DNA from: Pseudomonadota bacterium
GTDB lineage: Bacteria; Pseudomonadota; Gammaproteobacteria; Halothiobacillales; Halothiobacillaceae
DNA length: 45,633 bases
Direction: 5' to 3'
NCBI GenBank assembly: GCA_021801265.1
Contig: JAJYYE010000007.1
Span: 1 to 45,633, forward strand
The first letter of the stretch is position 1, and the number at the start of each line of letters is the position of its first letter. Below, in pieces: positions 14,836 through 45,633 of this stretch. The notes beneath the pieces are model-generated. The model did not search any database. It had not been told where the DNA came from and worked only from the letters and a program-made list of their open reading frames with translations. The translations under genes and the position numbers were made by a program.

Positions 14836-14853
14836 AAGCACTACGCATGCCAA
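14836..14853 (-). promoter_or_regulatory. Sigma-54-type promoter for the dipeptide-type importer operon
   Basis: On the minus strand the sequence TTGGCATGCGTAGTGCTT has GG (14851-14850) and GC (14839-14838) separated by exactly 10 nt, as in the TGGCAY-N5-TTGCW consensus. The -12 part reads GTGCT, one base off. The predicted start is near 14826, ~42 nt before the ATG. I found no full NtrC-type enhancer; TGGTGC at 15122-15127 is a half-site only. Confidence 0.6.
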
Positions 14854-14859
14854 CTAATT

Positions 14860-15360
14860 TTAAAAAGATTAAAATGTTGATTATTATGAATATATATAAG
14901 AATTTCTCGGTGGAAAAGAACGCTAAACCTAAATGAGTGCACCATGGTGAGGCAGAAGATGGAAGAGTGAGGCGGTGGCTATTTGTAAAGTTTAATGTCA
15001 TTAAATACTTACAAATATATTTAATCAGGCGACAAAAGTAATAAGCCCATCGCAAAAACCAATTCGCGAGCCGTTTGTTATATTAAGGCATGGCATATCC
15101 GGTGTGATGCGGGTTCATTCGTGGTGCAAATGCGGCCTCAAGGATTGCAGGCGAGGTGAACCAAAAAGAAGGTGTCATAAGCAGTTGACCTTCGGTTGGC
15201 AACAAATGCGTGGGTCATGATCTTCAACTGCAAGGTGATGCCAGAAGGTTTCTGGGCTTTGCAAGCAAGGCAAAACGCCGAGAGAGATTCTGATTTGCTA
15301 AACAGCCTTCCTCGTTAAATTGGATAATTTTTCTGCCAAAAATCTACTTTTCTTAAAGAA
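14860..15360. other. Long intergenic stretch without a recognisable gene
   Basis: Together with its flanks, the region between the binding-protein gene and gntR is ~840 bp. 14860-15060 is AT-rich. 15061-15300 is clearly more GC-rich. Within it the minus strand stays open for about 55 codons (15302-15138), with residues such as GITLQLKIMTHAFVANRRS but no start codon near the beginning, so it could be a gene relic. A perfect TGCACCATGGTG dyad lies at about 14937-14948. I see no RNA gene or mobile element. Confidence 0.4.
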
Positions 15361-24202: not shown

Positions 24203-25477
24203 ATGCTGGATTTAAAGATGATTAACTGCACCCTGGCTGATGGCCGAACGGGAATGGATATCGGCATTACAGATGGCCGGATCGTGGTCTTACAACCTCA
24301 CTTGATTGCTGAGGCCGAGCAAGTCATTGATGCCGAAGGGCAATTAGTTACCCCACCGTTCGTTGATGCGCATTTTCACCTCGATTCCACTTTGTCGTTC
24401 GGCCAACCTCGAGTGAATGAATCCGGCACGCTGCTCGAAGGCATTGCCTTGTGGGGCGAACTCAAACCGCTGCTGACTCAAGAAGCCGTGATTGAGCGGG
24501 CATTGGCGTATTGCGATTGGGCGGTCGCGCGCGGATTATTGGCGATACGCTCGCATGTGGATGTGAGTGATCCTCGAATGTTAGTTGTTGAGGCGTTGCT
24601 TGAGGTGCGTGAGCGCGTCAAACCCTATATTGACCTTCAATTAGTCGCCTTCCCGCAGGATGGTTTGCTTCGCACGCCCAATGGCTTGAGTCACTTGATC
24701 CGTGCGCTGGATAGGGGGGTGGAGATTGTCGGCGGCATTCCGCATTTCGAACGCACAATGACCGAGGGCGCAGAATCGATTCGGATTTTGTGCGAACTGG
24801 CTGCAGAACGCGGGCTACAGGTGGATATGCACTGCGATGAAACCGATGATCCCTTATCACGGCATATCGAAACCCTGGCGTTTCATACCCAGCGTTTGGG
24901 CTTGCAGGGGCGGGTGGTCGGCTCACATCTCACCTCAATGCACTCGATGGATAATTACTATGTCTCGAAATTAATCCCGTTAATCAAAGAAGCGGGCGTC
25001 GCCGTGATTGCCAATCCACTGATTAACATCACCTTGCAAGGCCGCCACGATACCTATCCTAAGCGTCGTGGCATGACGCGCGTGCCCGAGTTGATGGCGG
25101 CGGGGGTCGATGTGGCGTTCGGTCAGGATTGTGTGATGGATCCCTGGTACAGCCTGGGTTCTGGCGATATGTTGGAGGTCGCACACATGGGGCTGCATGT
25201 TGCACAAATGACCAGCCAAACTGCCATGCGCGATTGTTTCCATGCGGTGACCACCAACGCGGCTAAAATCCTCGGGCTTGAGGGGTATGGGATTGCGGTT
25301 GGCGCCAAGGCAGATTTGGTGTTATTGCAGGCAAAATCCCCGATGGATGCCATTCGGCTTCGTGCGAACCGGTTAATGGTGATTCGTGCCGGGCGGGTGA
25401 TTGCCCGTTCGCCCGCTCTATTTTCTTTGTTAAATATTGAAGATAGGCCGGAAAAAATTATTTTTAATGATCGGTAA
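24203..25477 (+). CDS. codA: CodA-type cytosine deaminase with altered gate residue
   Basis: I place the start at ATG 24203 (GAGAGG upstream), giving 424 aa; GTG 24197 is possible. It aligns with E. coli CodA throughout at a constant offset of about three residues: HFH at 57-59, FPQ with Gln153, HCDET with His211 and Glu214, SHLTSMHS with His243, and metal Asp310. The next residue, E. coli Asp314 that closes over the pyrimidine ring, is Cys311 (FGQDCVMDPW), and His312 is Gln309. Cytosine deamination is the base prediction, but substitutions at this position are known to widen use of 5-substituted cytosines. Uracil produced feeds Upp or Rut. Confidence 0.86.
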   Translation: MLDLKMINCTLADGRTGMDIGITDGRIVVLQPHLIAEAEQVIDAEGQLVTPPFVDAHFHLDSTLSFGQPRVNESGTLLEGIALWGELKPLLTQEAVIERALAYCDWAVARGLLAIRSHVDVSDPRMLVVEALLEVRERVKPYIDLQLVAFPQDGLLRTPNGLSHLIRALDRGVEIVGGIPHFERTMTEGAESIRILCELAAERGLQVDMHCDETDDPLSRHIETLAFHTQRLGLQGRVVGSHLTSMHSMDNYYVSKLIPLIKEAGVAVIANPLINITLQGRHDTYPKRRGMTRVPELMAAGVDVAFGQDCVMDPWYSLGSGDMLEVAHMGLHVAQMTSQTAMRDCFHAVTTNAAKILGLEGYGIAVGAKADLVLLQAKSPMDAIRLRANRLMVIRAGRVIARSPALFSLLNIEDRPEKIIFNDR

Positions 25478-25567: not shown

Positions 25568-26089
25568 TTACGGTAAAACTTGGCTTAAGCCATGGTAATT
25601 TCGCTGATAATAAATTAAGCATTGGCCGTTGTTATTATGGTTGATTTCTTGAACTTGGCACAATAAAACATCATGGCTTCCCGCTTGGACTTGTTCCACA
25701 ATTATGCAGTCAAAGCTTATCAGTGCATCTTTTAGTACCGGTGCCCCCGTGACAGATGTAAACCAACTCGTCGCATTAAACCGATCATCCATGCTGAATT
25801 TTCCTCCGAATAAATCTGAAAGTGATCTAAGTTCTGGGCTTAGGGTATTAACACATAAATTATCATGGGTATTAAATGTTTTATATACCGAGGCATTGCG
25901 GTTTAAACACACCAGGAGTGTGGGTGGCTCATCACTGACGCTACACACCGCTGTCGCGGTAAAGCCGGCGCGCCCCATAGGGCCATCGGTGGTTACAATG
26001 TTCACAGCGGCTGCCAATGATGACATGGCCTCTCGATAGCGCTGTTTACTCAATGGCACGCGGGTTTTGTGTGATATGAGGGTATTCAT
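25568..26089 (-). CDS. rutF: Flavin reductase RutF
   Basis: The 173-aa NAD(P)H:flavin oxidoreductase supplies reduced FMN to RutA. It has the family strands AMSSLAAAVNIVTTDG, AGFTATAVCSVSDEPPTLLVCLN and NLCVNTLS. It is the last gene of the rutABCDEF series, 16 bp after rutE, and is convergent with codA. Confidence 0.92.
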   Translation of the reverse strand: MNTLISHKTRVPLSKQRYREAMSSLAAAVNIVTTDGPMGRAGFTATAVCSVSDEPPTLLVCLNRNASVYKTFNTHDNLCVNTLSPELRSLSDLFGGKFSMDDRFNATSWFTSVTGAPVLKDALISFDCIIVEQVQAGSHDVLLCQVQEINHNNNGQCLIYYQRNYHGLSQVLP

Positions 26090-26105
26090 GTTTGGGGCGC
26101 TCCAT

Positions 26106-26699
26106 TCAAATTAATTGGCAAGCTTTGGCGAATGAAAGCCTGGGTAAACGATGGTGTAGCGTGACTTTATTTCCATAGCCTAAATTAATCAGTAAATTCG
26201 ATTTCCAAGTGCTGTTATTTAAGAACTCTTTATCGATGGCTTTGTTATCAAAACCCGACATTGGGCCAGTATCTAAACCGAGGCTCCGTGCGGCCATAAT
26301 AAAATAACCCGCTTGAAGTGTGCTATTTCTAAACGCGGTTTCAAAACTGATATCGTCGGGGCTCCCCGTAAACCAGATTTTAGCCTCTGCATAGGGGAAT
26401 AATTCGGGTAATTCGTGATAAAACTCGCTGTCATAGGCAACAATCACAGTGACGGGCGCGGATAAGGTTTTTTCAATATTACCCTTGGAGAGATAAGGCA
26501 TGAGCCGAGCTTTAGCGGCCCGGCTTTGAATAAATACAAATCGCCCGGCACTACAATTGGCCGATGTAGGCTCAAGGCGGGTAAGGTCATACAACTGATG
26601 CAGCACCACATCGCTGATGGGTTCATCTCGCCATCCACTGTAGGTTCTCGCTTGGGTAAAGAGTTGCGCTAGTGCGTTTTCATTCAATGCCGGGGTCAT
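26106..26699 (-). CDS. rutE: Malonic semialdehyde reductase RutE
   Basis: I start at ATG 26699 ([10 protein letters not shown], 197 aa), matching the E. coli RutE length of 196. It is a nitroreductase-fold enzyme with [42 protein letters not shown] and [12 protein letters not shown], near-identical landmarks to E. coli RutE. It reduces toxic malonic semialdehyde from uracil breakdown to 3-hydroxypropionate. A YdfG-like dehydrogenase with the same possible job lies at 35.7 kb. Confidence 0.95.
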
Positions 26700-26700
26700 T

Positions 26701-27516
26701 TTAATGGCTCTCAATTTCTACAGGGTGGGTCGATTGTTGGTGTGATTTAAGGTGCGTTTTGAGTAACGCATTGATGTGGGGTGCCTCTGAGATACTAGAG
26801 GCGTGGCCGCCGTGTTCCACCATTTCAAGGGTTGAATCGGGCAGGGCATCATAAAGCTGCTGTGAGCAATGCCAAGGGATGAGGTGATCATCGCGGTTGG
26901 CGATAAGTAATACGGGAACGTGAATTTGATGTAAATAATCTCGGGCATCAAATCTAAGGAGCGCATCAATACGTTTTAGTACGTTGTCTGGATTGGGGAA
27001 ATGACGCAGGGCGCGTGCATCTTCCGCAATTAAGCGGGTCTCGTTGACCGCAATCCAGTCCGGCGAATAAAGGAATAGTGACTGCGCTTCAACATAGGCC
27101 GCAGGGCCAATCAGGGTGAGTATTTTTTTTCGCACGGAAAAACAGCGAGCCGTGTGTGCATTGGGCGCTGCCCAGGCGTTGATTAAAATCATGCTTTGAA
27201 CGGTTTGCGGGAAGCGTTTGGCTAACTCAAGCGCAATCAAGCCACCAAGCGCATGGCCAATGATGTGGTAGCGTGTAATAGATAGGCTATCAAGCGCTTG
27301 GGCTAACTCATAAGCCATATCGGTAATGCTGTAATCTTCGGGGAGCACTGCCGGACTTGCCCCCATGCCCAAATGGTCGTACACCACCACACGATAATCT
27401 GAAACAAGCGCATCAAGTTGCGGTTCCCAGAAGTGAGCAAGCCCACCCAGCCCAGAGCTCAGCACCACCGTGGGTGCATTAGGTGTTTGTACACCGAGTA
27501 TTTCAATCGATAGCAT
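26701..27516 (-). CDS. rutD: Alpha/beta-hydrolase-fold protein RutD
   Basis: The 271-aa protein is the RutD subunit that speeds aminoacrylate/carbamate hydrolysis. It has [31 protein letters not shown] and [10 protein letters not shown], all matching E. coli RutD. The nucleophile elbow reads GHALGG, with Ala where true hydrolases have Ser. E. coli RutD has the same change (GHALGA), so this is a family trait and not decay. The catalytic His region HGGHASS is kept. Confidence 0.93.
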
Positions 27517-27554
27517 GAGAAAACCGCCTTCAACAGGTGTGTAGCGTGGGTGAA

Positions 27555-27944
27555 TCAGGCTTTGCTTATGTGCGCAATACTGGCAATTTCAACCAGTGCA
27601 TCGGGTTTAACAAGCCCGCACTGGATGCAATAACGCGCCGGTTTTTCGCCCGCAAAGTATTCGGCATACACAAGATTTATCGCGGCATAATCACTCCAAT
27701 CGCGCAGCATAATCATATTGAAGGTGATATCGTCTAGCGTGCCGCCAGCAGTTTTTACGACTTTTTTGATTGTTTCAAGCACATGGCGGGTTTGGGCGCT
27801 GGCATCGTTGAGGTGTACCACATTGTTGTCTTGATCGAATGGCAGGGTGCCTGACACATATAAAACGCCATCGGCCATTGATCCTGGTACATAAGGCGCG
27901 AGGGGTTTGCCGCTGCCGGCGGGAATAATTGATTGCTTAGGCAC
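27555..27944 (-). CDS. rutC: Aminoacrylate deaminase RutC (RidA family)
   Basis: I use the GTG start at 27944 ([12 protein letters not shown]) because AAGGAGACA lies just upstream and it gives 129 aa, against 128 in E. coli. The longer reading from upstream would overlap rutB far more. It has the RidA signature [19 protein letters not shown] and Gly-rich [11 protein letters not shown]. It deaminates 3-aminoacrylate. It overlaps the rutB end by 8 nt. Confidence 0.94.
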
Positions 27945-28695
27945 GAGCTGTCTCCTTGTTGAGGGTGGGGGTAAAGGCAGTACAAAATTCATCAACTGAA
28001 CTCACCCAGCCAAAAAATGTTTCGATGTTATAGAGCGCGGCTTGCTGGATGAATTCGGGGCCAGCCTGATGGGTGGCATCGGCTAACACCACGCCGAAAT
28101 ATTCCAGAAAAAAGCCATCGCGCAGGGTGGATTCAACACACACATTGGTGGCAATGCCGGTGAAAACGAGAGTACGAATGCCCCGACTGCGCAGCATGCT
28201 ATCGAGTGGCGTATTGAAAAACCCACTGTAGCGCGGTTTTGGTACGACTAAATCTTGAGGTTGGGGTACAAGGGCATCAACTAAATCGTAATCCCAAGTA
28301 CCTTTTGCCAGCAAAGTCCCCATTAATTCGGGGTTTTTGCGCATGGTTTTCATGGCATTGGATTTGTACCAATTAGGCGAACCCGGCCCGCCTGCTTCGG
28401 TGTACGCCACATCCCAGCCATTTTGTAAGAAAATGATCTGCATACCCGCCTGGCGCGCGGTGGTAATGGCTTTGTTGATGGAATCAATCACAAGGTTCGT
28501 TTGGGACACATCAAAGCCTGCACGATCCAAGTAGCCGCAGGGGGATGCGTAGGCATTTTGCATGTCCACAACAATAAGTGCCGTTTCGCTGACCTTCATT
28601 CGGAGCGGTTCTGGGCGTGCGGCTAAAAGAATGGGCGAATCGGATCGATCAAGTAAGTAGCCTGATGCGTTTTTTTCGGTAGTGCGGTTCATCAT
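27937..28695 (-). CDS. rutB: Ureidoacrylate amidohydrolase RutB
   Basis: The 252-aa isochorismatase-fold cysteine hydrolase releases carbamate and ammonia from (peroxy)ureidoacrylate. It has the catalytic Asp in VVDMQNAY, Lys in VPKPRYSGF and Cys in [11 protein letters not shown]. The long N-terminal stretch and [16 protein letters not shown] segment match RutB. ATG 28695 overlaps the rutA stop (ATGATG). It is the third isochorismatase-type hydrolase in the window, with the two near 39 and 41 kb. Confidence 0.94.
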
Positions 28696-29780
28696 GCCCG
28701 CTCTGCCGTGCCGAGAAGATGCGCGCGTGATTTCATCAAGGGTTGGATTTTTTGTCCGAAATCGTCCATCCCACGGATGAAATCATCAAATACCAGCATG
28801 ACGCCACTTGTCCCCGTCACTTCTGCGACCTCATCCAGCATTTTAGCGATGGTTGCAAAGGATCCGACCAAGGTGCCCATGTTGATGTTGACAGCTGAGG
28901 TCGGGTCAGCCATTTGACGAACATTGGTATCTGATTTGGATTTTGTATCCGCCGCCGCTTGCTCACCAAGCCAAGCGATGGCCGCTTCATCGGCGCCAGC
29001 CTTGTAATATTCCCAGCGTTCGCGCGCAGCCGCATCGGTTTGTGCGGCTATGACCATGAATAAAACACAGGCGGTGACATCCCGACCAGACTGCGCTGTC
29101 GCCTTCATGAGCCGCTCTACCGTGGGCGCGAAGGCTTGGGGGGTATTGACACCGCGACCGAAACAAAAATTGTAGTCCGCATATTGAGCGGTAAACGCCA
29201 TACCTGCTTCGCTTTGCCCTGCACAGATCAATTTCATGTCCGCTTGGGGTTTTGGGCTGACCCGACAATCTTCCATCGTGAAATAGTCGCCTTTGAGATC
29301 GCAATGACCAGTCGACCAGAGATCACGCAAAACTTGCGCGTATTCACCGAGATAATCGTAGCGGGAGGCAAAAAAATCATCACCTGGCCATAGCCCCATT
29401 TGGCTATATTCGGGTTTTTGCCAGCCGGTAACCAAATTCACGCCGAATCGGCCGTTTGAGATTGAATCGATAGTCGAGGCCATTCGCGCCACGATTGCGG
29501 GTGGGATGGTTAATGTCGCTACCGTACCAAAGAGTTGGATTCGTTCAGTTACAGCGGCAAGGCCGGCCATCAAGGTAAAAGACTCTAGGTTGTGTTCCCA
29601 GAATTCCGTTTCACCGCCAAAACCCCGCAATTTGATCATTGATAAAGCAAAATCGAAACCGTAGTGTTCTGCTTTTTGAACAATCGTTTTATTGAGTTCG
29701 AAGGTCGGCATGTATTGGGGAGCGTTTTTTGAAATGAGCCACCCGTTGTTGCCGATGGGGATAAAAACGCCGATATTCAT
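28692..29780 (-). CDS. rutA: Pyrimidine monooxygenase RutA
   Basis: The 362-aa luciferase-like flavin monooxygenase opens the uracil ring between N3 and C4 with FMNH2 and O2. Length (E. coli ~363) and motifs fit: [14 protein letters not shown] at the N terminus, [42 protein letters not shown] and [19 protein letters not shown]. It is the first gene of the rut operon. Its promoter region is described separately and includes a sigma-54 element. Confidence 0.96.
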
Positions 29781-29839: not shown

Positions 29840-29855
29840 TGCAATGGTTGTGCCA
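29840..29855 (-). promoter_or_regulatory. Sigma-54 promoter of rutABCDEF
   Basis: The minus strand reads TTGGCACAACCATTGCAT around 29856-29839, an almost exact match to the TGGCAC-N5-TTGCW consensus. GG (29854-29853) and GC (29842-29841) are separated by 10 nt. Transcription should start near 29829, ~50 nt before the rutA ATG. In E. coli rut transcription is also under nitrogen (NtrC) control. Confidence 0.85.
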
Positions 29856-29906
29856 ATAAATTAAATTCTATTTAATCAATGGCTTGTTTATTTTAATGGT
29901 TTTATT

Positions 29907-29922
29907 TTTACCAAATGGTCTA
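29907..29922. promoter_or_regulatory. RutR operator
   Basis: TTTACCAAATGGTCTA matches the E. coli RutR site TTGACCA-N2-TGGTCAA at 12 of 14 defined bases. It lies between the sigma-54 promoter and the NtrC-like sites, in the rutA/rutR divergent region. Bound RutR, released by uracil, could block activation loops or control its own promoter. Confidence 0.75.
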
Positions 29923-29929
29923 TATCGGA

Positions 29930-29944
29930 GCACTTAGTTTGTGC
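29930..29944. promoter_or_regulatory. NtrC-like enhancer site 1
   Basis: GCACTTAGTTTGTGC has the GCAC-N7-GTGC form of an NtrC binding site. Its centre (29937) is ~108 bp upstream of the predicted rutA start, a normal enhancer distance. Confidence 0.65.
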
Positions 29945-29949
29945 GGCTG

Positions 29950-29964
29950 GAGCCAAATTGGTGC
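29950..29964. promoter_or_regulatory. NtrC-like enhancer site 2
   Basis: GAGCCAAATTGGTGC fits the GCACCA-N3-TGGTGC consensus except at positions 2-3. Its centre is 20 bp (two helical turns) from site 1, so both dimers would face the same side of the helix. Confidence 0.6.
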
Positions 29965-30047
29965 AACTCATGGGTAAGTGACAGCAGCCTGTAAAATGCT
30001 CCATGATGAAGCCACTTCCCTGAAACTGACCTTCAATTGGAGACTGT

Positions 30048-30749
30048 GTGACCGTGAGAAAATTACGCTCTAAGCGAGATGCCACCCTTGATAGCCCGAT
30101 AAAATCACGTCGCGTCGCAACTGACGTGGCAAAAGAGCGCCGACTTCGTCAAATTGAGCTTAAACGCGGCGCGATCATGGACGCGGCTTTGGATGTTTTT
30201 TCTCGTTATGGTGTGCATGGCACGAGTTTGGATCAGGTGGCAATTCAGGCCGATGTCTCTAAAACGAATCTTCTCTATTACTTTCCTTCGAAAGAGGCGC
30301 TATATGTCAATGTATTGCGCCAACTTCTAGAGGTTTGGCTTAAACCCTTACAATCTTTTAGTGTCGAGCAAGACCCCATCGAGGCAATTGCTGAATACAT
30401 CCGAGTCAAACTCACGTTATCGCGCGATCATCCGGCAGAATCTCGATTGTTTTGTTTGGAAATCGTGCAGGGCGCACCATTGCTACTCACGGAGTTGCAG
30501 CAGCCCTTGCACGATATTGTCCAAAACAAAGTGGCCGTGATTCGGGCGTGGGTTCAGGAAGGAAAACTGGCCTCTGTTGATCCCTATCATCTGATTTTTT
30601 CACTTTGGGCTGTCACGCAGCATTACGCAGATTTTCGGGCGCAAGTTGAAGCCGTATCGGGTAAAACGCTAGACGACCCTGAATTTTTTGCTGAAACTTT
30701 ACAAAACCTACAGGATTTGATTTTAAACGGGATCCGTCCACGCAGTTGA
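30048..30749 (+). CDS. rutR: TetR-family repressor RutR
   Basis: The product is 233 aa from GTG 30048, longer than E. coli RutR by a basic N-terminal extension (residues 1-~38). The TetR DNA-binding domain follows (IMDAALDVFSRYGVHGTSLDQVAIQADVSKTNLLYYFPSKEALY), nearly identical in its recognition region to E. coli RutR. The ligand domain has AVTQHYADFRAQVEAVSGK, typical of RutR, which binds uracil and thymine. It is divergent from rutA and followed by the set-2 importer. Confidence 0.94.
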   Translation: MTVRKLRSKRDATLDSPIKSRRVATDVAKERRLRQIELKRGAIMDAALDVFSRYGVHGTSLDQVAIQADVSKTNLLYYFPSKEALYVNVLRQLLEVWLKPLQSFSVEQDPIEAIAEYIRVKLTLSRDHPAESRLFCLEIVQGAPLLLTELQQPLHDIVQNKVAVIRAWVQEGKLASVDPYHLIFSLWAVTQHYADFRAQVEAVSGKTLDDPEFFAETLQNLQDLILNGIRPRS

Positions 30750-30782: not shown

Positions 30783-30871
30783 TGCGCACCAAGTGCTCTA
30801 AAACAGACCATTTAATAAAAATAAATCCCCGGTATTTTTGTAACAAATTGTTTTTTATGAATAAAATTTCA

Positions 30872-30887
30872 TGGCATGCTTGATGCT
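30872..30887 (+). promoter_or_regulatory. Sigma-54-type promoter of the set-2 importer
   Basis: TGGCATGCTTGATGCT has GG (30873-30874) and GC (30885-30886) spaced by 10 nt and matches TGGCAY-N5-wTGCW. The start would be near 30898, ~100 nt before the binding-protein ATG. No clear NtrC site is visible nearby; the two sites at rutA are ~940 bp away. Confidence 0.62.
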
Positions 30888-30999: not shown

Positions 31000-32103
31000 A
31001 TGAAGACAGTCATGAAAACATTCGCGGCAGGTATGCTCGGCGTTTATGCTCTGGTTAACGTTACCCAGCCAACTTATGCCGATGACGAGGGTTTAACAAT
31101 CCAAGGACCGCCTAAAATTGCCATGCTGTATATCAGTCCGCGTAATGATGGGGGGTGGACACAAGCCTTCGATGAAGCACGTCAAAAACTGGAAGTTCAG
31201 CTTGGGCAAAAAATTCAGTTTGTAGAAAATGTGCCCGAATCGGCATCGGCAATCCGCCCAGTCGTCGAGCGCCTCATCCAGCGAGGCAGTAATATCATCA
31301 TTGGTACCGCCTTTGGATACTCCGATACGTTTAAAGACTTAGCCGCAAAATATCCGCATGTGGCTTTTTTAAATGGTTCCGGCACGACCAATTCCAAAAA
31401 TCTCCTTTCATTTTATGGCCGAACTTATGAAAGCCAGTATTTATGCGGCATGGCGGCAGGCGCGGTATCTAAAACGGGCAAGCTGGGGTTTGTCGCTGCC
31501 AATCCATTTGGCCAGGTGAATTGGACAATTAATGCCTACGAACTCGGGGCACAACAAATTAACCCGAAAGCTACCGTTACCGTGATTTATACCGGCGCCT
31601 GGAACGATCCCATCAAAGAGCGCGCCGCTACCATGGCTTTAATTGACCAAGGCGCGGACGTTATTGGTCAGCATGTCGATAGCCCTACGCCGCAAATCGT
31701 CGCGCAAGAGCGTGGGGTATATGGCACGGGTTACCACCGAGACATGCGTGAGTTTGCCCCCAAAGCGACCGTGTGCTCATCAGTTTGGGTTTGGGATCGT
31801 TTCCTAGCCGTTGAATTGAAAAAAATCATGGCCGGCCACTGGAAACCCTTACCACAAGGCGCATTATTGTCGATGCAGCAAGGTGGTACTGATATTGCTT
31901 GTTGCAGCAGTGCCGTACCCCCGGCTGATGTCACCAAAATTATGGCCATGCGAACTGAGCTAATGGAAGGTAAAAAACAGATTTACGAAGGCCCTATGTC
32001 GGATGGTAAAGGCGTTGTGCAAATTCCTGTGGGGGCGGTGTTGCCTGATGACAAACTCTGGAAAATGGAGTGGTTTGTTAAAGGCGTGATTACCCAGCAA
32101 TGA
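31000..32103 (+). CDS. BMP-family nucleobase binding protein, set 2
   Basis: The 367-aa periplasmic binding protein has a Sec signal peptide (MKTVMKTFAAGMLGVYALVNVTQPTYA). It has BMP (PF02608) motifs: KIAMLYISPRNDGGWTQAFDEA, GTAFGYSDTFKDLAAKYPHVAFLNGSG, YLCGMAAGAVSKTGKLGFVAANPFGQV and GADVIGQHVDSPTPQ. BMP proteins bind nucleosides or bases. Its place directly after rutR suggests uracil or thymine as ligand. The stop overlaps the ATPase start as ATGA. Confidence 0.93.
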   Translation: MKTVMKTFAAGMLGVYALVNVTQPTYADDEGLTIQGPPKIAMLYISPRNDGGWTQAFDEARQKLEVQLGQKIQFVENVPESASAIRPVVERLIQRGSNIIIGTAFGYSDTFKDLAAKYPHVAFLNGSGTTNSKNLLSFYGRTYESQYLCGMAAGAVSKTGKLGFVAANPFGQVNWTINAYELGAQQINPKATVTVIYTGAWNDPIKERAATMALIDQGADVIGQHVDSPTPQIVAQERGVYGTGYHRDMREFAPKATVCSSVWVWDRFLAVELKKIMAGHWKPLPQGALLSMQQGGTDIACCSSAVPPADVTKIMAMRTELMEGKKQIYEGPMSDGKGVVQIPVGAVLPDDKLWKMEWFVKGVITQQ

Positions 32104-33632
32104 GCCTCAAAAACGCGCTTCAGCTCGACCGCGTCAGCAAAAGCTTTGATGGTTTTAAAGCCCTAAGCGATGCGTCATTTACGGCGCGTTGGGGCGAGGT
32201 TCATGCCTTGCTCGGTGAAAATGGCGCAGGAAAATCATCGTTGATGAATATCGCAGCAGGACTCTATGCTCCTGAAGCGGGGGCGTTATTCATTGATGAT
32301 AATCCCGTGCGTTTGACAGGCCCGCGTGATGCTATGCGCCAAGGGATCGGCATGGTGCATCAGCATTTTAAACTTGTCAGCCCATTTACGGTTGCGCAGA
32401 ACATTCTGCTCAGCATGAATCAGAGCGCTTTGCGTGGGTTTTATGACCATAAGCTAGCAAAAGTTTCCCAAGCAATCAGCCAAAAATCTGAAGAATTAGG
32501 TTTTGGTATCGACCCCAGGACCCGTACTGACCGCTTATCGGTTGCCGAACAGCAGCGAGTAGAAATTCTCAAGGTGCTCTTGGCGGGTGCCAAGATTCTC
32601 ATCCTTGATGAGCCGACGGCGGTGCTCACCGATGATGAGTCCAATCGATTGCTAACGACGGTTAAAGCCCTCGCAACTCGGGGAGCCGCCGTCATTTTAG
32701 TTACCCACAAAATGCATGATGTGATGCGTTACGCCGATCAAGTCACGATTATGCGGGGGGGTAAAACTGTGGCGACGTTAGCGCCACAATCGGTTGATTT
32801 GTCTAAATTAGTTAAACTGACTGTCGGTGATACGGATAGTGCCCGGAGCGTTAGCGAGCCGCATATTCGAGGTGCTGCACGGTTGGTTATTACCGATTTA
32901 TCTTCTGCCCAGACAACGACTCAGGCATCGAATGGTGTGTTGCGCGGGGTTAATTTAACGCTACACAGTGGCGAGATTTATGGCATCGCTGGGGTGGGCG
33001 GCAATGGCCAAACTGAACTTGCCAATGCTTTAATGGGCTTTGGTGCCCCAACTTGTGGCGATATGTTACTTGATGGGCAAACGCAGCTTCAGAGTCTCAC
33101 CCCCACCGAGCGGCGGGCGCAAGGTATCGCCGCAATTCCCGCAGATCGCTATGGTGCCGCCTTGGCTGCGCCGCTTTCGGTGGCCGATAACTATGCGATG
33201 GGGCAAATTCATAGCGGTCGGTACGGTTCGTTCGGGTGGCTTAATTCTCGCAAGATTGCCGCTGACACCACCAAAGCCATTGAGGCGTTTGATGTGCAGG
33301 GTGTGCGTTCAATACACCAAAAAGCGGCGTTATTATCGGGGGGCAATGCCCAAAAACTGGTAATCGCGCGGGAATTTAATCATCCCCCCGCTATCGTTTT
33401 TGCGCACAGTCCAAGTCGTGGCTTGGATGTGCGCGCCATGGGCGCGATCCATGCGCGGCTCCACGCCGCCCGCGCAGCCGGTGCGGCGGTGCTGCTGATA
33501 AGTGAAGATTTGGACGAGGTATTAGCGCTGGCTGATCGCATTGGCGTGATGTCTTCAGGGCGCATTGTGGTTGAATTTAATCAACCGGCAGATCGACAGG
33601 CGATTGGCCAAGCCATGGTGCATCATGTTTAA
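32100..33632 (+). CDS. Nucleobase ABC importer ATPase, set 2
   Basis: The 510-aa protein fuses two nucleotide-binding domains. Domain 1 has [21 protein letters not shown] and LILDEPTAVLT. Domain 2 has GVGGNGQTEL and LSGGNAQKLVIAREF, with a degenerate Walker B (AHSPSRGLD). It starts 4 nt inside the binding-protein gene and ends 8 nt inside the permease gene. Confidence 0.92.
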   Translation: MSLKNALQLDRVSKSFDGFKALSDASFTARWGEVHALLGENGAGKSSLMNIAAGLYAPEAGALFIDDNPVRLTGPRDAMRQGIGMVHQHFKLVSPFTVAQNILLSMNQSALRGFYDHKLAKVSQAISQKSEELGFGIDPRTRTDRLSVAEQQRVEILKVLLAGAKILILDEPTAVLTDDESNRLLTTVKALATRGAAVILVTHKMHDVMRYADQVTIMRGGKTVATLAPQSVDLSKLVKLTVGDTDSARSVSEPHIRGAARLVITDLSSAQTTTQASNGVLRGVNLTLHSGEIYGIAGVGGNGQTELANALMGFGAPTCGDMLLDGQTQLQSLTPTERRAQGIAAIPADRYGAALAAPLSVADNYAMGQIHSGRYGSFGWLNSRKIAADTTKAIEAFDVQGVRSIHQKAALLSGGNAQKLVIAREFNHPPAIVFAHSPSRGLDVRAMGAIHARLHAARAAGAAVLLISEDLDEVLALADRIGVMSSGRIVVEFNQPADRQAIGQAMVHHV

Positions 33633-34716
33633 ACCGACTCGCTTTCAGCCTATATTTAGTCGGCGCTATGTGTTAGACGTTCGCCAGCAAATGCCCACTT
33701 GGATACAGGCGATGATTATCTCGTCGGCGCTTGTGTTTGGCCTGTTGATTTCAGCGTTAATTTTAGTTGCCGCAGGGGTTTCGGCATCTGACCTGTTCAA
33801 TGAATTTGTCTTATATACCTTATTTGATGGCCAAAGTTTACGTGCGGTTTTGTTCCAAGCCGCACCATTAATTGTTTTAGGGTTGGCTGGCGCATTGGCA
33901 TTTCGGGCGCGCTTTTGGAATCTTGGCCTTGAAGGTCAGATGATTTGGGGGGCGATTGCAGCTACTGCTGTTTCATTGTTTGAGATTGGGCCACCGTCGC
34001 TGCGCCTAGTTTTAATGTTCATCGCGGCCATTATCGGCGGGTTAATGTGGGCTTTGGTTCCGGTGCTATTAAAACTACATCTCAAGGTGAACGAGATTAT
34101 TTCGACACTAATGCTGAATTATATCGCAGTTAATTTTTTACTTTTTTTATTATATGGTAGCTGGAAAGATCCCCGCGATTCATTCCCTTATTCACCGCAA
34201 TTTAAAAGTTTTGAGCGCCTGCCGAATATTTTTGATGGGGTTAATTTAGCGATTCCTATTGCTTTAGTGATCGCATTACTGGTGCTATGGTTTACCCGTA
34301 TTTCACGAGCGGGTTTATATCTTCGCTTTGTTGACAGCAGTCCTGGAGTCGCTGCGGCTGTGGGTGTGCCTGTTCAGCGAGTCATTTTACTTACGGTCTT
34401 ATTTTCAGGCGCTTTGGCTGGGTTAGCCGGTTTTATGGTGTCGGCGGGACAAGAGGAGCGTTTAACTCATTCGTTTTATCTTGGCTATGGATTTTCGGGA
34501 ATTTTGATTGCTTTTTTAGCGCGCAATCAGCCCATTGCCGCAACGGTTGTGGCGGTATTGGTGGCGACATTGTTTGTGGGTGGCCGCAGTTTGCAGGTGT
34601 ATTACCAAATTCCTTTTTCGATGGTTCAATTGATTCAAGCCATTTTAGTGATTTGCGTTGCCTCATCCGATTTTTTTATCCGTTACCGCATTCGGCGGAT
34701 TCAAAGCGAGGCATAG
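33625..34716 (+). CDS. Nucleobase ABC importer permease 1, set 2
   Basis: I choose ATG 33625 (MFKPTRFQPIF, 363 aa), which overlaps the ATPase stop by 8 nt; a longer frame upstream is less likely. It has the BPD_transp_2 pattern PLIVLGLAGALAFRARFWNLGLEGQMIWGAI, LKVNEIISTLMLNYIAVNFLL and GYGFSGILIAFLARNQPIAA. About eight to nine helices are visible. It pairs with the next, shorter permease. Confidence 0.92.
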   Translation: MFKPTRFQPIFSRRYVLDVRQQMPTWIQAMIISSALVFGLLISALILVAAGVSASDLFNEFVLYTLFDGQSLRAVLFQAAPLIVLGLAGALAFRARFWNLGLEGQMIWGAIAATAVSLFEIGPPSLRLVLMFIAAIIGGLMWALVPVLLKLHLKVNEIISTLMLNYIAVNFLLFLLYGSWKDPRDSFPYSPQFKSFERLPNIFDGVNLAIPIALVIALLVLWFTRISRAGLYLRFVDSSPGVAAAVGVPVQRVILLTVLFSGALAGLAGFMVSAGQEERLTHSFYLGYGFSGILIAFLARNQPIAATVVAVLVATLFVGGRSLQVYYQIPFSMVQLIQAILVICVASSDFFIRYRIRRIQSEA

Positions 34717-34719
34717 GGT

Positions 34720-35661
34720 ATGGAGATCATCAGTAGTTGGGTGGGTAATATCCCCGATTTAGCCGTACCATTTGCCTTGGCTGCACTGGGGTTGATCGTC
34801 ACAGAACGTGCTGGCGTTTTGGCTTTGGGTGCCGAAGGCTTGATGCTGGTGGGCGCGCTGTTTGGGGTAGGGGGGTATCTTCTATTTGACTCAACGGGCA
34901 TTGCGCTATTACTGGCTATGCTGGCAGCAAGCGGGGTTTCGATTTTATTTGCGGTTATGGTCTTGGTTTTGCGTATTAACCAAGTCATTGCCGGTTTGGC
35001 GCTCGTGTTTTTTTGCCAAGGGTTAACCGCATTGCTCGGAATTTTATTTGGCTGGGCCAGTCACCCTGTTTCTGGTTTTGAAGCTTGGACACTCTGGCCT
35101 TTATCTGAACTGCCCATTGTCGGGCGATTGTTCATACAAAACCCTGTAGTTTATTTAACCCCCCTAATTTTTTTTGCGGTGGCCATTTATTTAAACCATT
35201 CCATGAGCGGTTTAAAATTACGCGCAGTGGGTGAAAATCCCCAAGCCGCTGATGCGGCCGGGATACCTGTTTTAACCTACCGTTTTGCGGCAATTTTGGC
35301 TGGCGCCGCTTTAATTGGTTTAGCGGGCGCGTACATTTCGGTGCTCAGTACTAAGATGTGGATTGAGGATATGACCGGTGGTCGTGGTTGGATTGCCGTG
35401 GCGCTGGTGATTTTTGCCCGCTGGTCGCCATGGCGGGCATTCGCAGGTGCGATTTTATTTGGCAGCATTGAAGCTCTCATTCCACAATTGGCCGCCGCAG
35501 GTGTTCGATTGCCGCAGTATTTTGTGTTTATGACGCCCTATGTGGTCACACTGGCTGTCATGATTTGGGTTGCATTGCCCAAGCGAGATCAAAACAAGCC
35601 CGATCAAAAGAACCAACCCGATGCCTTGGGTGAGCCCTTTATTCGTGAAGAACGGCGTTAA
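34720..35661 (+). CDS. Nucleobase ABC importer permease 2, set 2
   Basis: The 313-aa permease has the N-terminal VPFALAALGLIVTERAGVLALGAEGLMLVGA motif and the [22 protein letters not shown] loop. The C-terminal tail is unusually polar, with KRDQNKPDQKNQPDALG after the last helix. It starts 3 nt after the previous gene. Confidence 0.92.
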   Translation: MEIISSWVGNIPDLAVPFALAALGLIVTERAGVLALGAEGLMLVGALFGVGGYLLFDSTGIALLLAMLAASGVSILFAVMVLVLRINQVIAGLALVFFCQGLTALLGILFGWASHPVSGFEAWTLWPLSELPIVGRLFIQNPVVYLTPLIFFAVAIYLNHSMSGLKLRAVGENPQAADAAGIPVLTYRFAAILAGAALIGLAGAYISVLSTKMWIEDMTGGRGWIAVALVIFARWSPWRAFAGAILFGSIEALIPQLAAAGVRLPQYFVFMTPYVVTLAVMIWVALPKRDQNKPDQKNQPDALGEPFIREERR

Positions 35662-44844: not shown

Positions 44845-45633
44845 TTAGAAGTGGTATTCGACGCGGACCATGGGGGTTTTGGCGAAGGCACCTGAGCCTG
44901 CGGATCCATTGGCATCGACGCCGAATTTATTTTTCCACCATTGATATTCAAGGCCGGCTTTGAACGTGCTGGCTGGGCCACCAAAGAGTTTGCCGACATC
45001 GGCCATGATTTGGGCATCGATGTTGATTTCGGTTTTGGTTTGATTACCGAATTCATCTTTGCCTTTGGGGGCGATCAAGTTGGCAAAGCCTTCGAAAGAA
45101 AATGCCGAAGAGCCAATGGGAATACCCCAGGCGGCGGTCAGCATTGGATGGGTTTTGTAGGTATAACGCGCCACGCAGGTATTGGTGTAATCACTGCACG
45201 GCGCATTGCTTTCCCAGAGGGCGAGCAGGCTGACATTCAAGAATCCTGGCACATCGAACATCATGGTTGGCCCGAGCACCAGCATGCGTTTTTTCGAGTT
45301 ATAGCCGGCATCGGATTTGGTGTTGAAGTCAAAACCGCTGGTGACGCCGAGGCCTTTAATTACTCCATATTTCAGGTTGTGGCCGGTAATTTTGCCGATA
45401 TCGAGCGTATTGCGATAAACGGCATAAACCTCTTGTGCGCCGGATTTGCCATCGGGAGCGGAAGGGTCTTTTTTATCCGAAAAGAGGGCATCGATGCTGA
45501 AGAAGTTTGTGCCGTATTTAAAACCACTGACATGGGTGAAATTGAGGATATTTTTGGAGATATCGTTGCCTTCATAGGGTTCAGCGAATTTGGTGCCATA
45601 GCGCCAGCTCAGGGAGGTGTCGCTCCAGTCGGC
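44845..45633 (-). CDS. Nucleoside-specific outer-membrane channel (Tsx/OmpK family), C-terminal part
   Basis: The frame is open to the right edge, so the N terminus and signal lie outside; 262 residues are visible. Family marks are LSWRYGTKFAEPYEGNDISKN near the left, VYRNTLDIGKI, GPTMMFDVPGFLNVSLLALWES, KTEINIDAQIMADVG and a C-terminal strand ending RVEYHF, with the terminal Phe needed for beta-barrel assembly. Such pores admit nucleosides and small polar rings. It is 30 bp before the BMP gene, which points to a dedicated outer-membrane entry for the importer's cargo. Confidence 0.9.
   Translation of the reverse strand, partial: ADWSDTSLSWRYGTKFAEPYEGNDISKNILNFTHVSGFKYGTNFFSIDALFSDKKDPSAPDGKSGAQEVYAVYRNTLDIGKITGHNLKYGVIKGLGVTSGFDFNTKSDAGYNSKKRMLVLGPTMMFDVPGFLNVSLLALWESNAPCSDYTNTCVARYTYKTHPMLTAAWGIPIGSSAFSFEGFANLIAPKGKDEFGNQTKTEINIDAQIMADVGKLFGGPASTFKAGLEYQWWKNKFGVDANGSAGSGAFAKTPMVRVEYHF

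Follow-up and report, generated by a model that had tools for sequence, protein, structure and literature searches.

The rut locus and its control region

The window, by which we mean the whole 45,633-nucleotide stretch of DNA that was analysed (contig 2 of the host genome, G000), carries a rutABCDEF operon on the minus strand and, divergent from it, a gene for the TetR-family regulator RutR. The gap of 267 bp between rutA and rutR holds a compact set of candidate regulatory sites which, read in order towards rutA, are two NtrC-type dyads, a RutR box, an IHF-type site and a sigma-54 element. The genes and sites are as follows.

25568 to 28695, minus strand: rutB, rutC, rutD, rutE and rutF, the remainder of the rut operon
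28692 to 29780, minus strand: rutA, first gene of rutABCDEF (TIGR03612, 696.5 bits; cut-off 498.3)
29840 to 29855, minus strand: sigma-54 -24/-12 promoter element of rutA, TGGCACAACCATTGCA, matching 11/11 fixed positions of TGGCAY-N5-TTGCW
29874 to 29886, plus strand: IHF-type site AATCAATGGCTTG, 9/9 of WATCAA-N4-TTR
29907 to 29922, minus strand: RutR operator TAGACCATTTGGTAAA, a 16-bp palindrome with 12/14 of TTGACCA-N2-TGGTCAA
29929 to 29945, minus strand: proximal NtrC-type dyad CGCACAAACTAAGTGCT, 9/12 fixed positions scored
29949 to 29965, minus strand: distal NtrC-type dyad TGCACCAATTTGGCTCC, 9/12, 20 bp further upstream
30048 to 30749, plus strand: rutR, divergent TetR-family regulator (NF011584, 293.3 bits; cut-off 230)

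RutB, RutC and RutD exceed their NCBIfam cut-offs, RutE does so as malonic semialdehyde reductase, and RutF falls just below its own (242.2 bits against 254.75). The next open reading frame after rutF is codA, convergent at 25477. RutR of the window lies under the cut-off of a second model, TIGR03613 (330.7 against 368), as does RutR in 6/6 other rut genomes checked. It shares 57.9% identity with E. coli RutR across 202 aa, and the HTH stretch VSKTNLLYYFPSKEALY in its DNA-binding domain is identical to that of the E. coli protein. The structures of several RutR relatives have been solved (pdb: 3loc, 4jyk, 4xk4, 4x1e and 6z1b).

A preliminary description of this DNA had placed upstream of rutA a sigma-54 promoter of the form TGGCAC-N5-TTGCA, a 12/14 RutR operator and two NtrC-like dyads with centres 20 bp apart, at about -108 and -128, the operator standing between the dyads and the promoter. 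These minus-strand sites are confirmed base for base, the ATG of rutA being at 29780. The sigma-54 element is a perfect match, with 10 bp between the GG of -24 and the GC of -12. If transcription begins 12 nt past the -12 C at 29841, the predicted rutA start is at about 29829, which leaves a leader of about 49 nt after the element and puts the NtrC dyad centres at -108 and -128, the RutR centre at about -86 and the IHF-type site at about -51. Measured start to start, the RutR operator lies 67 bp upstream of the sigma-54 element and 23 bp from the proximal dyad, and it ends about 51 bp upstream of the element. The IHF-type site, which begins 31 bp upstream of the sigma-54 element and so stands between the RutR box and the promoter, goes beyond the preliminary description, as do the spacing rule and the second module described below. 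It was scored against the IHF consensus WATCAA-N4-TTR. NtrC-type dyads were scored on the 12 fixed positions of TGCACNANNNTNGTGCA; against the full 14-position consensus (TGCACCA-N3-TGGTGCA) the two dyads of the window match 9 and 11. Two candidates were set aside. NtrC-like matches 10 bp before RutR are taken not as separate sites but as composed of the proximal dyad's right arm and the first RutR half, and a known RNA family in the control region was rejected, the search of the whole window having brought only a 5S rRNA fragment (1 to 81) to the gathering score.

Chance levels were estimated by shuffling the gap between rutA and rutR 5000 times (first-order). Four of the shuffles had a perfect sigma-54 element in the correct orientation and 8 had a RutR match of at least 12/14. 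A single NtrC dyad of at least 9/12 is weak evidence alone, being present in 666 shuffles (13%), but a pair of such dyads spaced 19-22 bp apart never appeared (0/5000), so that the pair, and not either dyad, carries the weight. A 9/9 IHF match on either strand was found in 154 shuffles. Across the genome (2.66 Mb) the sigma-54 pattern occurs 11 times, the rutA site among them, against 2 occurrences of a reversed control pattern. None of 30 shuffled windows contained, on either strand, the composite of a 10/10 relaxed sigma-54 element with a RutR match of at least 12/14 at 55-92 bp. A loose scan of the window for RutR/sigma-54 composites gave 5 matches, 2.4 composites being expected by chance at that threshold, and of the 5 only those at rutA and at the BMP operon discussed below have an IHF-like site of at least 8/9.

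The host encodes one RpoN (PF04552, 229.5 bits; cut-off 22.8; G000:C4) and one NtrC above cut-off (TIGR01818, 725.1 bits against 558.6). It also has 8 further strong matches to the NtrC model (288-416 bits), all below cut-off, and as each dyad is imperfect (9/12) one might suppose that the dyads are used by some enhancer-binding protein other than NtrC, such as another sigma-54 activator of this host. We regard this as improbable. The dyads conform to the NtrC consensus TGCACCAnnnTGGTGCA given in PMC8743547, they match in place the NtrC-type dyads of an E. coli genome, and a dyad upstream of the host's own glnA has the same form (10/12). That glnA region (L241) contains NtrC-type dyads of 11/12 at -586 and 10/12 at -303 with a sigma-54-like element of 9/11 at -139; searches over 700 bp upstream of the three amt genes of the host brought no NtrC/sigma-54 pair. 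Genetic evidence points the same way, as mutation of ntrC impairs P. stutzeri A1501 on uracil, thymine and cytosine (PMC8443478). The module itself is present in three Stutzerimonas stutzeri loci (L045, L046 and L053), strain A1501 not being among them.

RutA is scarce among the relatives of the host. None above cut-off was found in the other 114 relatives searched, 9 of which belong to the same genus, and of 369 genomes drawn evenly from the class only 3, the host included, have RutA above cut-off. The nearest RutA proteins among the matches listed, those of Oceanobacter, Halopseudomonas and kin, are 83-84% identical. Because of this scarcity among relatives and in the class draw, the rut cluster was probably acquired by the host. 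It could then be argued, from the absence of RutA above cut-off in those 114 genomes and from the degraded state of the copy of the module at the BMP operon, that the control region is a non-functional relic of the acquired cluster and perhaps unregulated in its present host. Against this, the rutA module combines a perfect sigma-54 element with a perfect IHF-type site, and rpoN, ntrC and rutR are all encoded by the host. We consider this explanation very unlikely.

Conservation and spacing of the sites

Upstream regions for comparison were assembled from a RutA scan of species genomes, which gave 80 named loci among 280 stretches encoding a relative, with the addition of one E. coli genome and 71 loci with RutA above cut-off found by searching at class and family level. 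Weaker RutA paralogues (L011-L027, L119-L139, L163-L169 and L177-L198) were left out. The resulting 153 regions, window included, were reduced to 112 by removing those at least 80% identical; for unnamed loci the group label is taken from the named genome that defined the searched family. The sites were considered in register where a sigma-54 element of at least 9/10 (relaxed motif) had a RutR box of at least 9/14 at 40-120 bp upstream.

The comparison with related genomes, which the preliminary description had proposed as a check, bears it out: a sigma-54 element and a RutR box stand in register in 91 of the 112 non-redundant regions, the window and E. coli included. The 21 that fail comprise 13 from Rhizobiaceae, 5 from Marinobacter, one from an alphaproteobacterial MAG and one each from the groups f92 and f140, and 4 of the 5 Marinobacter rows keep a RutR box of 10/14 but have a sigma-54 score of 8/10. 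NtrC dyads of at least 8/12 occur at the expected places in 73 of the 91 rows, about 2.8 being expected from shuffles. They are found in all rows of the Pseudomonas/Marinobacter type (34/34), the enterobacteria (25/25), f140 (7/7) and Vibrio (1/1), as well as in the window, and in only 5/12 Burkholderiaceae and 0/11 Rhizobiaceae. With dyads so sparse in one of the last two groups and absent from the other, the enhancer protein there may differ. IHF-type sites of at least 8/9 at 30-33 bp are present in 70 of 90 regions (one row, L210, with too short a segment being left out of this count), against 0.6 expected from shuffled segments.

The Rhizobiaceae also contain a more divergent type of RutA (549-633 bits), seen in twelve loci (L226-L237) of 11 genomes, in 6 of which it stands beside a typical RutA. 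This type accounts for 10 of the 112 regions and passes the RutR/sigma-54 test in none of them (0/10).

As the RutR box lies between two divergent genes, it might serve mainly for the autoregulation of rutR, its position between the NtrC sites and the rutA promoter being incidental. The figure legend of PMC10891134 does draw a RutR site for rutR too, and rutR is divergent from rutA in 62 of the 90 regions that could be examined for this with 1.5 kb of upstream DNA, the window among them (L056, with 260 bp upstream only, was taken out). The 28 regions lacking a divergent rutR (27 having none at E<=1e-3, and one having it co-directional) are the informative ones. The box is kept in register with the rutA sigma-54 element in 26 of them, at 67-70, 80-81 or 88-90 bp, the exceptions lying at 45 and 74 bp. 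Thus the box, to judge from its placement, is kept for the control of rutA, whatever its role at rutR, and a box serving solely for autoregulation is rejected. A RutR-like box (9/14) also occurs 68-70 bp from the sigma-54 element of the BMP operon in 17 of 42 loci, and the only sigma-70-like match on the plus strand of the rutA-rutR gap, at 29978 to 30007, does not overlap the RutR box. Even in its weaker form, with autoregulation as the main role, this explanation is therefore one to which we give very little credence.

The distances between the sites follow a rule. Within a search confined to 22-25 bp, 71 of the 91 rows have a dyad upstream of the RutR box, at 23 bp in 57 rows and 24 bp in 14, the other 20 having no site there. 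Where both dyads reach at least 8/12 (46 rows) they are 19-21 bp apart. The distance from the proximal dyad to the sigma-54 element in the same 71 rows falls into four classes, 80-81 bp (3 rows), 89-93 bp (45), 101-104 bp (14) and 112-114 bp (9), with none between, and these classes step by about one helical turn. The 23-24 bp between dyad and RutR box would put RutR on the same face of the DNA as the proximal NtrC dyad and two helical turns away from it. On the RutA tree, a quick one with many weak forks, the NtrC-to-promoter class has changed at least four times by parsimony; a count of 13 changes for the RutR-to-promoter class was rejected as inflated by tandem RutR boxes in enterobacteria. 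A permutation test of the helical periodicity gave P = 0 with related rows treated as independent, a value not usable as a probability.

The best RutR box lies 57-58, 66-70, 78-81 or 88-90 bp from the sigma-54 element, with two outliers at 45 and 74 bp. In the enterobacteria of the longest class there is mostly a second RutR box about 19 bp nearer the promoter. Tandem boxes of this kind, 19 bp or about two helical turns apart at 88-90 and 69-71 bp, are seen in L096, L099, L147, L148, L154 and L160.

The same distances bear on whether RutR represses in the simplest way, by covering the sigma-54 promoter or directly blocking the polymerase. A box at 66-70 bp is the commonest arrangement (61/91), and most enterobacteria of the longest class retain one there as their second box; the retained distance of about 69 bp fits an action at the promoter side or on the loop equally well as one at the enhancer side. 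Against promoter covering, some 51 bp separate the box of the window from the sigma-54 element, an IHF-type site lies in between, and over the whole set it is the distance from box to promoter that varies by about a helical turn while the distance from box to NtrC dyad, where a dyad is found, is constant. Repression by occlusion of the promoter is consequently improbable in our estimation, and an action of RutR at the enhancer or on the loop is preferred.

A second module and the rest of the window

Beyond rutR lies an operon for an ABC transporter of the BMP type, preceded at 30784 to 30887 by what reads as a degenerate second module.

30784 to 30798, plus strand: NtrC-dyad remnant GCGCACCAAGTGCTC before the BMP gene, recognized by eye and unscored by the site scans
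30804 to 30819, plus strand: degenerate RutR box CAGACCATTTAATAAA, 9/14, 68 bp upstream of the BMP sigma-54 element
30841 to 30853, minus strand: IHF-like site, 8/9, 31 bp upstream of the BMP sigma-54 element
30872 to 30887, plus strand: sigma-54 element TGGCATGCTTGATGCT of the BMP operon, 10/10 relaxed and 10/11 strict
31000 to 35661, plus strand: BMP-type ABC transporter operon, with Bmp binding protein (PF02608), ATPase (PF00005) and two permeases (PF02653 twice), all above cut-off

Compared with the conserved GCGCACAAACCAAGTGCTC of the relatives, the NtrC-dyad remnant lacks about 4 bp. A BMP operon often adjoins rutR-rutA, a BMP relative of at least 55% identity being present in 42 of the 80 named loci listed. 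Directly before BMP, 17 of these 42 loci have a 10/10 sigma-54 element with a RutR-like box (9/14) at 68-70 bp; all 17 are from Pseudomonas and they are not de-duplicated. An NtrC dyad stands 23 bp from the box in 14 of the 17 and at 44-45 bp in the other 3. Matches to IHF in the BMP modules of the relatives are poor (5-7 of 9), and the copy is thus incomplete there. One further locus, L072, has the sigma-54 and NtrC parts with an ambiguous RutR call, and no such module was found directly before BMP in the other 24 of the 42.

Elsewhere in the window, a run of genes for a peptide-type ABC transporter and gamma-glutamyltransferase (14784 to 7713, minus strand) begins 68 bp downstream of a sigma-54 element TGGCATGCGTAGTGCT (10/11), and some 86 bp upstream of that element stands an NtrC dyad TGCACCATGGTGAGGCA (10/12), the two falling within 14837 to 14954. 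This is possibly a third nitrogen-controlled promoter. The genes between 7713 and 44814 include those for gamma-glutamyltransferase, PuuE allantoinase, OHCU decarboxylase, 8-oxoguanine deaminase and cytosine deaminase, upp and rut, together with those for BiuH biuret amidohydrolase, an AtzE amidase, an AtzH-like protein, two BMP-type ABC systems and a third related ABC set, and the region reads as a nitrogen-scavenging island. Near the end of the contig, at 45583 to 45598 on the minus strand, a sigma-54-like element TGGCACCAAATTCGCT (10/11) precedes the second BMP gene (start 44814) by 784 bp. At the other end, the 5S rRNA match at 1 to 81 is cut by the contig edge; the assembly break is probably within an rrn operon, which would place the left end of the window near rrn.

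A probable sigma-54 switch with a built-in repressor

It is highly probable, in our judgement, that the rut control region joins a sigma-54 promoter and its enhancer to a built-in repressor and works as an AND gate, the sites and their spacing being read from the DNA and their occupancy and ligands carried over from E. coli and from knowledge of the protein families. Under nitrogen limitation NtrC~P would bind the two dyads at -128 and -108 and, aided by a bend at the IHF-type site (about -51) as the geometry suggests, would contact sigma-54 RNA polymerase and open it on the -24/-12 element. RutR free of uracil or thymine would sit at about -86 and prevent productive assembly of the enhancer or its looping; that it should act there, rather than by covering the promoter, is again suggested by the geometry. 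Pyrimidine would release RutR. As activation needs NtrC~P and release needs pyrimidine, rutABCDEF would be expressed only under nitrogen shortage with pyrimidine available. The preliminary description had proposed such dual gating, by nitrogen limitation through NtrC and by pyrimidine through RutR, and the proposed function now draws support from the conservation of the sites, the regulators of the host and the literature on E. coli.

That literature agrees with the arrangement in the window. In E. coli K-12, rutABCDEFG and rutR are likewise divergent and share a sigma-54 element, NtrC sites and a RutR box (PMC10891134, figure legend). A sigma-54 site, CTGGCATCCGCTTTGCA, was found at rutA by ChIP-seq (PMC4591121), RpoN holoenzyme binds the rutA-rutR region in gSELEX (PMC8743547), and rut expression depends on NtrC, RutR and NtrC sites being recorded there (PMC10891134). 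In the E. coli genome of our own set (L108) the order of the sites is that of the window, with 23 bp between NtrC and RutR. The module of the window is about one helical turn shorter than that of E. coli, the distances being 90 against 103 bp from NtrC to sigma-54 and 67 against 80 bp from RutR to sigma-54. The window differs from E. coli further in having no rutG after rutF and in having, beyond rutR, the BMP-type ABC operon with its second module. In E. coli, rutA was no higher without RutR during exponential phase (PMC10891134), a result compatible with a gate that requires NtrC as well but showing no direct repression.

The kind of control is therefore known from E. coli, and the window is a further, probably acquired, case of it and not a new mechanism. 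Predicted RutR and NtrC regulons have been collected in RegPrecise, the RutR ones covering 68 genomes in 13 taxonomic groups with a mosaic distribution (PMC5343134); the passages of that paper that were covered describe no joint spacing of RutR, NtrC, IHF and sigma-54 sites. An IHF box is named in the figure legend of PMC10891134, and no description of IHF at rutA was found in the portions of PMC10891134 and PMC10100776 that were covered. What may be new, as far as the open literature searched goes, are the conserved IHF-type site, the fixed spacing of NtrC and RutR with its helical-turn steps and the BMP module, any of which may be in print elsewhere.

BetI is a repressor of the TetR family. 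The gbdR promoter of P. aeruginosa, reportedly described by Sanchez et al. in 2017, is said to bring together sigma-54 with NtrC/CbrB, IHF and BetI. It thus resembles the rut promoter in having sigma-54, an activator of the NtrC type, IHF and a TetR-family repressor, and differs from it in gene, ligand and repressor.

A repressor between enhancer and promoter is found also in synthetic NtrC/sigma-54 enhancers with TetR, LacI or TraR placed in the loop (PMC4740811), the likeness being one to engineered DNA. In these constructs TetR and TraR quench most strongly at about whole helical turns. The same paper predicted helical-turn steps in the loops of sigma-54 enhancers and reported them for the natural qrr genes of Vibrio, whose loop lengths cluster about 11 bp apart. 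The qrr enhancers use LuxO, unlike rut, and RutR is not mentioned in that paper (0 occurrences). A more far-reaching reading is that the rut control region is a natural and widespread case of the quenching-like repression previously built synthetically, with a TetR-family repressor locked in phase at two turns from an NtrC enhancer, within an IHF-bent loop evolving by whole turns, and with a portable AND-gate cassette copied to the BMP operon. We offer this tentatively, at somewhat below an even chance, and it is made slightly less likely by the poor IHF matches in the BMP modules of the relatives.

If the geometry is read correctly, these promoters form a natural set in which the loops differ by whole turns while the repressor is locked to the enhancer, and such a set could be used to test the silencing of a sigma-54 enhancer by a repressor that does not touch the promoter. 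The rut switch of E. coli is an old arrangement, in register across Pseudomonas, Vibrio and the enterobacteria and partly so in Burkholderiaceae and Rhizobiaceae, and it has probably travelled into a genus that, among the genomes searched, is otherwise without rut genes.
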